NCBI GenBank assembly: GCA_016209895.1
Contig: JACQVH010000217.1
Span: 1 to 52,919, forward strand
Source: Candidatus Hydrogenedentota bacterium
GTDB taxonomy: Bacteria; Hydrogenedentota; Hydrogenedentia; Hydrogenedentales; SLHB01
Length of the DNA stretch: 52,919 bases
Reading direction: 5' to 3'
Part shown: piece after piece, positions 11,941 to 50,740 of the stretch
How positions within the stretch are numbered: the stretch's first letter is position 1
Layout: every line of letters starts with the position of its first letter
The notes under the pieces: generated by a model
Told to the model about the DNA's origin: nothing
What the model saw: only the letters and a program-made list of their open reading frames with translations
The model's database searches: none
Program-made: the position numbers and the translations under genes

Positions 11941-11981
11941 GTCGCCCTTCTGCGGATTTGCCCGCTAACCCGCGCTTATTC

Positions 11982-12100
<119 letters not shown>

Positions 12101-12127
12101 TACTGCTGTTTCTAAGTTTATTCGAGG

Positions 12128-13486: not shown

Positions 13487-14107
13487 ATGAAGGCAAGCAT
13501 CTTGAGTCTCGGATCTACCTATCAGCAGGAGGGCATCATCCTGCACTTTGGTCCGTATCTCCCGAAACTCACCAACCGGGAGTTTTATGAATTCTGTCAA
13601 TTGAACCCTGAGTTGCGCATCGAACGCACCGCCGAGGGGGACTTAGTTATCATGCCACCAACTGGAGGGAAGACTGGGAAAACGAATTCTGCTCTCACGA
13701 CACTCCTGACGCAGTGGGCGGAAGCCGATGGCACGGGGGTTGTCTTCGATTCCTCCACTGGCTTCACCTTACCCAACGGAGCGATACTGTCGCCCGACGC
13801 CGCATGGGTTCGGCGTGACCGCTGGGACGCCCTGACCGACGAAAAGAAAGAGGAATTCCCCCCAATAGGTCCCGATTTCGTCGCCGAGATTCGTTCCCGC
13901 TCGGATTCTCTTAAAGCCCTCCACGCCAAGATGCGCGAGTACATGGCGAACGGCGCACAATTAGGTTGGTTGATAGACCCCATCGAAAAGAAGATTTCCG
14001 TGTACAGTGCCGGCGCGGATATGGTCTGCCACGAAAACCCTTCGAAACTCGCGGGTGACCCCGTCCTCCCCGGTTTTGTTTTGGAAGCGACGCGCCTTTG
14101 GCAATAA
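13487..14107 (+). CDS. Uma2 family (DUF820) endonuclease-like protein
   Basis: YEFCQLNPELRIERTAEGDLVIMPPTGGKTGKTNSALTTLLTQWAEADGTGVVFDSSTGFTLPNGAILSPDAAWVRRDRW...FVAEIRSRSDSLKALHAKMREYMANGAQLGWLIDP. Confidence 0.93.
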   Translation: MKASILSLGSTYQQEGIILHFGPYLPKLTNREFYEFCQLNPELRIERTAEGDLVIMPPTGGKTGKTNSALTTLLTQWAEADGTGVVFDSSTGFTLPNGAILSPDAAWVRRDRWDALTDEKKEEFPPIGPDFVAEIRSRSDSLKALHAKMREYMANGAQLGWLIDPIEKKISVYSAGADMVCHENPSKLAGDPVLPGFVLEATRLWQ

Positions 14108-14112
14108 GGCAC

Positions 14113-14600
14113 GCCTGTCCATCCCGTCCATCGTGTCCGTTCAGTCCATTCTCTCAATTCCCCACACACCACAGCTCGGCACCCGATGTGTCCTTTGTCC
14201 CCTATTCTCCGTCCATCTGTCTTATAATTTTCGTATTTCTCATATAATTAATATCAAGAGTGCAACGCCGGGGACTATATATATGAGAGGACTCTTGCAA
14301 TGACCATACATCCAGACCCATTGGCATCGTCCACTCGATGCACTGCGTCCACGACGTCCATCTGCTTGTCCCAAGATGCTTCGCGCAATCCGCGCTCGCC
14401 CGCCTCAAGCGGAATCCGCAATCGAACAATTCCTACAAAAATGTATCACGGTTTTTCACGAATCTCGATCACTTTTTCACAAATTTTGCTCGCTTTTTCG
14501 AAAAAAATGTACGCTTTTTCACGGATTCTGCACAGTTTTTCACCAGAATCCCCCCGTTCCTACCCCTCAAGACCGTTGCGTGCCAATGACTTACGTGGAG
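14113..14600 (+). repeat. Composite repeat element, copy 1: 9-bp GTCC units, core TGCAACGCC..CTATATATAT..TTGCAA, 21-bp-period T-tract array
   Basis: GTCC at 14117/14126/14135/14144; core 14257-14300; TTTTT tracts at 14452, 14473, 14494, 14515, 14536 (exact 21-bp spacing). Same architecture as 50041-50740 (-). Confidence 0.82.
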
Positions 14601-14607
14601 AACTGAA

Positions 14608-15918
14608 TTGAAAGCAGGCTTTTCCCGAGTAAAGATTACGCCACCATTGGGGACCACCATGATGGGCTTCGGTGCACGTGACATGGAGCACGGGTGTAGC
14701 GGCGTCCACGACGACATCTACGTGCGTGCCGTGTACGCCGAACAATCCGGCGAGGCCGCCCTCATCATGGGCTTCGACCTCTGTTTCCTGGGCCGCGTTG
14801 AATCGGACCGGTTCAAAGGCGCGATCGGACGCGTGTTGGACCTGGCGCCCAGGCAGATTCTGTTGAACACGACGCACAATCACGTCGGCCCTTCTGTTGG
14901 AATCTGGTACTCAGCAGGGTTTGAGCCTCCGGACCGGCTCTATCTCGAAGAGTTGGAACGCGCTACGGTCCAAGCTGCAGGTTTGGCGCGCGGAAACGCA
15001 CAAGAGGTCACACTCTGGGCCGGACAAACCCGTTCCGCGCTACCGATGAACCGGAGACGCCCTTCCGAAGACGGAAAAATCTATATGCGACCGAATCCAC
15101 CCGGCCTAGTTTATGACAAGATCCCGATGGTTCTCTTCAAGAACCTACGCGGTGACCCGGTCTGTCTGTTATTTTCCGTGTCGGCACATCCCTCGATGAT
15201 GAGTGGCTTCGAAATCTCGGCAGAGTATCCGGGAGCGATCATGACACGCTTGGATCGCAATCTTGGACAAACGGTAAGTCTGTTCCTTCAAGGTGTCGGA
15301 GGCGATGCGAAGCCCAGCGTTATCGGCGGAGACATCGAGTACTGGCGGCCTGGTACCTGGGAACTGATGGACCAGGCTGGCGCGATGGTGGCCGCCGAAA
15401 TCCGCGCGGCGTTGGACAACGGGCTTCAGGAAATTGAACCGCGCCTCCGCTCTGCCACTGTCGAGATGATTTGGCCGTTGCGGCCGGCGCCGTCCCGCGC
15501 CGTATTCGAGCAGACCATTACGGAAACGCCGCCGGACAAGCGTAACCAGGACATTAAGTGCCGCTGGGCCACCCGACAAATCGAATTGTTGGATCGGCGC
15601 GGTTTCTTGCCCGATTCAGCGCCTATCGGGATTCACGGCGTGCAACTCGGAATCGGGCTTCGAATTATTGGCATGGAAGGCGAGGCCGTCGCGGAGTGGG
15701 GCCAGATTATTGACCAATTCTATGACGGCGGGATTACGTTTCCGTTAGGCTACACGGACGGCACCGGCCTATACCTGCCGACCTCAAAGATGCTGGACGA
15801 AGGCGGCTATGAAGTGTACAGCTTCTGGGAGTACGGCTATCCTGCAGAATTGGCTCCCGGGATGGAAGACATAGTGCTCGATGCATTGCGAAACCTCCGG
15901 GATAACGGCATAAGTTAG
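14608..15918 (+). CDS. Neutral/alkaline non-lysosomal ceramidase-like N-terminal domain protein
   Basis: MKAGFSRVKITPPLGTTMMGFGARDMEHGCSGVHDDIYVRAVYAEQSGEAALIMGFDLCFL...LLNTTHNHVGPSVG. Confidence 0.85.
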   Translation: MKAGFSRVKITPPLGTTMMGFGARDMEHGCSGVHDDIYVRAVYAEQSGEAALIMGFDLCFLGRVESDRFKGAIGRVLDLAPRQILLNTTHNHVGPSVGIWYSAGFEPPDRLYLEELERATVQAAGLARGNAQEVTLWAGQTRSALPMNRRRPSEDGKIYMRPNPPGLVYDKIPMVLFKNLRGDPVCLLFSVSAHPSMMSGFEISAEYPGAIMTRLDRNLGQTVSLFLQGVGGDAKPSVIGGDIEYWRPGTWELMDQAGAMVAAEIRAALDNGLQEIEPRLRSATVEMIWPLRPAPSRAVFEQTITETPPDKRNQDIKCRWATRQIELLDRRGFLPDSAPIGIHGVQLGIGLRIIGMEGEAVAEWGQIIDQFYDGGITFPLGYTDGTGLYLPTSKMLDEGGYEVYSFWEYGYPAELAPGMEDIVLDALRNLRDNGIS

Positions 15919-50040: not shown

Positions 50041-50740
50041 TGGCGTTAGTGTGTAAGTGCTTGGCGTGCAAGGGGAGAGGGCGGGGCAGGACCGGTATTT
50101 GGTGTGAAAAAGCGGACAAAATCGGTGAAAAACGGGACATTTTTGGTAAAAATTGGTAAGAATTGGTAAAAAAGCGAACCAAATCGGTACAAAAACGGGA
50201 TACATTTTTGTAGGAATTGCTCGATTGTGGACCCTCCTTCGCCGAGGCTTCGGAGGGCGGGGTGCGGAGTGAAGGATCGGCTTGGGCCGGGCACCCGCGG
50301 GGGCGGGCACACGACGTAAGTGTCTGGGGCGCAGGGGCACGATGTGGCGCGAGGCCGCGATTTCGTATTAAAAAGTGTGCACAAAATGTGCACAAAGTGT
50401 ACCGTTTTTTGCAACTTTTGTGCATTTGCGTGCACAAAGTGTGTAAGAAGTGTGCATAAAACGTGCACTTTTTTGGGGCCGCAGCGAGTGAGTGGTGAAC
50501 GGTGAAGAGCGTCCGGTATGGCTGTCCGGAGCGTACCGGCACATGGTTGCCGGGGGTTGGCGCATGATGGGTGAGCACGGAATCCTCCTTTCGCGGGCGG
50601 TCCGCCCCGAGGCGGGTAAGCCCGAGTTGCAAATATCCCTCTATATATATAGCCCCGGGCGTTGCACTCTCCATGTTAGAAATGATAAAAAAGCGAAATA
50701 AGAAAAGGGACCCAAGGGACGTAAACGACGAAAGGGACTT
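50041..50740 (-). repeat. Composite repeat element, copy 2 (inverted relative to copy 1)
   Basis: On the minus strand: four 9-bp GTCC/GTCG units (plus-strand ggac/cgac at 50708, 50717, 50726, 50735), core AGAGTGCAACGCCCGGGGCTATATATATAGAGGGATATTTGCAA (50627-50671), GTGCAC array (50375-50470), hairpin 50232-50257, 20-21-bp T-tract array (50101-50220). Confidence 0.82.
50232..50257. repeat. GC-rich near-palindrome CCCTCCTTCGCCGAGGCTTCGGAGGG
   Basis: Outer arms CCCTCC/GGAGGG and inner GCC/GGC pair around a symmetric TTC/TTC internal loop; read directly. Confidence 0.85.

Follow-up and report, generated by a model that had tools for sequence, protein, structure and literature searches.

A helically phased T/A-tract module of 164 bp, located just upstream of a weakly ceramidase-like gene in the 52,919-bp window (the whole stretch of Candidatus Hydrogenedentota DNA that was analysed), is best regarded, with slightly better than even confidence, as the predicted curved architectural cis-element of a mobile-promoter-like dispersed intergenic unit. 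The unit consists of a leader motif, a variable, stop-poor spacer, the tract array and ACTTAC, and the array module is its right part. The window contains the following features:

14223–14258, plus strand: left border of the duplicated unit, rich in T; matching between recent copies starts up to ~35 bp before the leader
14259–14286, plus strand: leader motif AGTGCAACGCCGGGGACTATATATATGA, which precedes the array by 172 bp, found by copy comparison and putatively promoter-like
14300–14611, plus strand: open frame with an ATG behind GAGAGGA, passing through the array, its TGA overlapping the TTG start at 14608; no Pfam family
14431–14594, plus strand: array module, copy 1, which opens with TCCTACAAAAATGTATCAC and contains nine T/A tracts phased at 10.5 bp, followed by a C-rich stretch and the TTGCGTGCCAATGACTTAC end
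14452–14540, no strand assigned: phased tract core, with T runs at 14452, 14473, 14484, 14494, 14515 and 14536 and an A run at 14501–14507
14608–15918, plus strand: downstream gene, weakly ceramidase-like (PF04734, E=0.12, below the cut-off, aligned from residue 4)
50052–50215, minus strand: array module, copy 2 (profile R1, E=4.3e-34)
50315–50475, minus strand: variant array of subfamily 2, made up of TTTATGCACAC units and placed in tandem with copy 2, upstream of it (profile R1, E=2.9e-9)
50641–50668, minus strand: leader of copy 2, exact consensus

The original prediction had reported five TTTTT tracts starting at 14452, 14473, 14494, 14515 and 14536, exactly 21 bp apart, which was confirmed by reading the sequence, and the AAAAA at 14437, TTTT at 14484 and AAAAAAA at 14501 also lie where it had placed them. 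The 21-bp spacing represents two steps of a 10.5-bp series that includes TTTT 14484 and the A7 run at 14501, and the five TTTTT tracts belong to a series of nine T/A tracts, ~10.5 bp apart, spanning 14452–14540. This spacing is not due to chance (TT signal at 10.25–10.75 bp of 2.97 versus a dinucleotide-shuffle mean of 0.42, 95% 1.06; p<=0.0005 in 2,000 dinucleotide shuffles). In an alignment of copies, the tract centres fall at 23.5, 34.5, 44.5, 55.5, 66.5, 74.5 (the A run), 86.5, 97.5 and 108. No 10.5-bp phasing was detected in the T-rich edge 5' of the leader.

A BLASTN search of the own genome (5.34 Mb in 312 contigs) with 14400–14560 as the query recovered 39 places, one of them at 50104–50231 on the minus strand of the window, and a sequence-only profile built from 25 copies (R1) detected 55 copies at E<1e-5, copy 1, which is 164 bp long, being matched at 14431–14595 (E=3.5e-30). 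The copies have in common a TCCTACAAAAATGTATCMC start, the tract array, the C-rich stretch and a TTGCACGCCAANNACTTAC end, and the conserved part of copy 1 extends to ACTTAC, the last base of which is 14594. The distance from start to end was 162–165 bp in all 29 copies in which both ends were recognised and exactly 164 bp in 23 of them, whereas the column entropy was 0.26 bits in the tracts versus 0.75 between them. A base gained in one interval tends to be offset in the alignment by a loss in another, so that the phase is preserved. Tract phase and module length are conserved across the copies more than sequence, and the fixed phase may partly come from common ancestry and not from selection. 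Subfamily 2 has the same layout and end as the main family. Many copies lie near contig ends (L044, L045, L046, L060, L061, L026, L029 and others), so that assembly was probably interrupted at the repeat and more copies may exist than were counted. No obvious replication polarity was found, as copies on one contig face both ways (C82, C177).

The leader is a 28-bp motif (consensus AGTGCAACGCCCGGGGCTATATATATAG, with TATATATA as a sequence within it) that lies 122–561 bp 5' of most copies; 40 copies of it were found genome-wide with no more than three mismatches, and the window copy at 14259 has four. Close copy pairs match from the leader, or from up to ~35 bp before it, to just past ACTTAC, with 97% identity over at least 521 bp in L035/L045 and 95% over 376 bp in L019/L024, and the right boundary in these two pairs falls at +163 to +168. 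Since the matches stop there and the DNA on either side is unrelated, the whole stretch has been copied as a unit to many genome sites. Terminal inverted repeats were absent from the three copies examined, target-site duplications were not evident at the copy edges, and neither a transposase nor empty sites were found, the relatives searched having included no second genome of the genus.

None of the 48 array sites is contained in a called gene, and the gene next to the array tail is co-oriented at 34 sites and convergent at 14 (p=0.006), with genes called by a simple codon model instead of a standard gene finder and the 48 sites including the two tandem arrays of one window site. The adjoining genes are of many kinds. 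The array had previously been proposed as an upstream bend of the ceramidase-like gene, which proved too narrow: 34 sites precede a co-oriented gene, but 14 face a convergent 3' end. The distance of about 50 bp between array and start codon needs correction: the last T-tract ends 67 bp before the TTG at 14608, and the module ends at 14594, 13 bp before it. Just 5' of copy 1, a gene at 13487–14107 encodes a putative endonuclease of the Uma2 family (Pfam E=2.3e-42).

From its location, we infer that the leader is promoter-like, and a scan of 14100–14700 returned no sigma-70-type promoter. Leaders without an array were also observed before phage-type genes, at L056 (C308:8329–8356), L058 (C242), L040 (C101) and, in the relative G008, L071. 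Such leaders lie ~80 nt before a phage gene run that includes a Mu-type portal gene (Pfam E=1.2e-9), separated by a single ORF from a terminase-like gene further downstream, and ~60 bp before a gene that was labelled fibre-like by reading and has no family match; in a same-family relative, a leader precedes a short ORF and an endolysin-like gene (labelled by sequence reading).

The array is predicted to be strongly curved DNA. A curvature calculation, which the original prediction had proposed as a check, found no 105-bp stretch of the 52.9-kb window to be more compact than those in the two arrays, 50076–50180 (copy 2) ranking first and 14466–14570 (copy 1) second, under a dinucleotide wedge model with quoted parameters, in which control A-tracts behaved as expected (phased, compact; unphased, straight). 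Relative to 10,922 background windows, drawn from 384 kb of the own genome, all 40 copies scored lie in the 1% tail of wedge-model curvature and 35 in the 0.1% tail, although each copy was allowed its best placement within 130 bp and a background window only a single one, which somewhat favours the copies. A score of tract phase that is independent of the wedge parameters also put 40/40 copies above the 99.9th percentile. Together with the 10.5-bp phasing, which is present in 38/38 copies tested, these values give computational support to the earlier suggestion of phased bent DNA. The arrays of subfamily 2 are phased, yet not unusually curved by the wedge model, so that something besides curvature may be conserved.

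The repeat family appears, on the basis of sequence searches, to be largely confined to the host genus. BLASTN against 59 relatives, which included no second genome of that genus, did not find the module, nor did distant BLASTN against phages and plasmids, and viral contigs contained no match to the core and leader patterns. In the open-access literature, no repeat family of such kind was found. The exact core pattern had nine matches in a genome collection, all in unrelated organisms, and the two that were inspected (L062 and L067) have no array. In addition, profile R1 gave two weak matches (E=8e-4 and 1.7e-3) in G012, a same-family genome of a second genus, which contains at least four dispersed arrays built from CTTTTTGATCG units around GGAAAACGTCGCC; their TT period is ~10.75 bp. 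Three aligned G012 copies differ by indels of 10–11 bp, or one helical turn. A reverse search of the own genome with a model built from G012 (R2) returned nothing, and homology of the G012 and host families is therefore unproven. The G012 arrays (L124–L127) are flanked by the DnaA-box-like TGTGGATAACTT, and a TGGCGCTAGCGCCA palindrome is also present.

In the favoured interpretation, the array would function at the DNA level, its intrinsic curvature offering one face to which a protein that bends or wraps DNA can bind, a candidate being a host nucleoid protein or a protein that moves the element. The leader would be the promoter, and the unit a mobile promoter cassette in which the curved segment separates the promoter from the adjacent gene. 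For the gene at 14608 in the window, the unit would provide expression through a ~300-nt leader.

Among the alternatives, coding and RNA-level explanations were considered. The same register had been noted to read as seven-codon units, and open frames do exist in the window copy; however, upstream start codons, including those with a ribosome-binding sequence, lead into the array in each of the three frames, the frame entered differs among copies, lengths vary by 1–2 bp and not by multiples of three, and the possible array peptides matched no family. RNAalifold found no conserved pairs in 25 copies, Rfam gave nothing credible for the window and 20 loci, and the array folded no better as RNA than its shuffles. 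With neither an RNA structure nor a shared reading frame conserved, a functional heptad peptide is unlikely, and that the array exists to encode a seven-residue repeat seems extremely improbable. Position-in-codon variability was tried as a coding test and is uninformative because the 21-bp spacing ties tract positions to frame. Another possibility is that leader, spacer and array form a transcribed and translated 5' leader under selection for an RNA poor in G and free of stops, which might, for instance, link translation to that of the following gene or control Rho-dependent termination. Sense-strand stops are indeed depleted, with 36 observed versus 177 expected in the array (0.20) and 54 versus 120 in the spacer (0.45; below expectation in 24 of 25 spacers), in comparison with ratios of 0.97 for the antisense spacer and 0.83–0.96 for ordinary intergenic DNA, although the shuffles ignore the kinship of copies and tandem repeats and the effect size is uncertain. 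This depletion is compatible with translation through the unit, and in the window the leader frame terminates within a TTGA that overlaps the following start codon. In the spacer, the non-stop control TGG stands at 0.82 of expectation. On the other hand, the depletion of TAA, TAG and TGA extends to every sense-strand frame in both spacer and array, and TGG is likewise depleted in the array, so that the repeat unit accounts for part of the effect. Starts with a ribosome-binding sequence are not open through the array significantly more often than other starts (p=0.17), a convergent gene occurs at 14 sites, and TGA is present in the G012 units; the translated leader is regarded as an unlikely explanation. 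A few overlaps with the next gene were seen, but no excess for general translational coupling was established. The sense strand of spacer and array (14259–14594 and copies L009–L061) was also observed to be G-poor, unlike ordinary intergenic DNA.

Two further explanations concern the array as DNA. It could be a row of phased binding sites (T-run plus YAC) for a sequence-specific DNA-wrapping protein, with curvature as a by-product, for which plasmid centromeres with 11-bp direct repeats and multi-site transposase ends offer models. T-run plus YAC units recur at 10.5–11 bp in both subfamilies, including the phased and hardly curved subfamily 2, and whole units have been gained or lost among the G012 copies; but the bases between tracts vary in subfamily 1, some 55 intergenic copies are unlike a centromere, and no cognate protein was identified, and we consider this possible but rather doubtful, if less so than the other alternatives. 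A neutral repeat, in which a 21-bp unit arose by tandem slippage, was spread by recombination and is phased by origin only, would fit the abundance of short tandem repeats in these intergenic regions. It is about as unlikely as the translated leader, since module length is constant to within 2 bp, tracts are kept in diverged copies, and a phased family with no BLASTN connection to that of the host occurs in the other genus.

Several known systems resemble the unit in part. With dozens of short non-coding intergenic copies, unrelated flanks and mosaic subfamilies, it resembles MITE and REP/BIME elements; however, no terminal inverted repeats or palindromes were found in it, and its conserved part is a phased tract array. 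It is thus a dispersed intergenic repeat family, as its many copies, non-coding sites and unrelated flanks indicate, and is not a MITE by definition because terminal inverted repeats were not found in the three copies examined. Mobile promoters are repeated units that drive transcription of their neighbours, and putative examples share with this family a promoter-like motif repeated upstream of unrelated genes, whereas promoter activity here is inferred and ~30% of copies lie beside convergent genes. The parC-type centromeres, which contain 11-bp direct repeats, are likewise helically phased at about one turn, and the present arrays differ in being multicopy and dispersed. Phased A-tract curved DNA has the same A/T tracts at helical period and predicted intrinsic bend, but it has been described as genome-wide periodicity and not as a discrete 164-bp module with fixed ends and ~55 copies (PMC3431218, PMC3940949). 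In these studies, A-tract periodicity was statistically linked with nucleoid proteins and prophage content, and the role of curvature in prokaryotes was described as not clear (PMC3431218, PMC3940949). Arguments about what intrinsic curvature does in bacterial chromosomes usually rest on genome-wide statistics. In this family, one predicted bend is naturally replicated ~55 times with its geometry fixed, its sequence varying and the orientation of the neighbouring genes known, which makes the effect of a bend directly testable. A more general and quite tentative proposal is that such units represent mobile intergenic elements recognised by DNA shape, in which a fixed-length nine-tract bend with its own promoter and stop-free leader would be kept by phase and not by sequence, and of which a second genus may have an independent or very diverged version.

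Some other repeats were observed in and around the unit. A seven-base tandem repeat, CTGTCTC, is present in 17 copies at 11981–12101 of the window, and heptamer-like repeats also occupy many spacers of the dispersed unit. TCTCTTTACA or a near match recurs ~50–60 bp past the array end in L023, L030, L020, L057, L060 and L040, where it resembles an outward -35 box or may mark the true right end of the unit.
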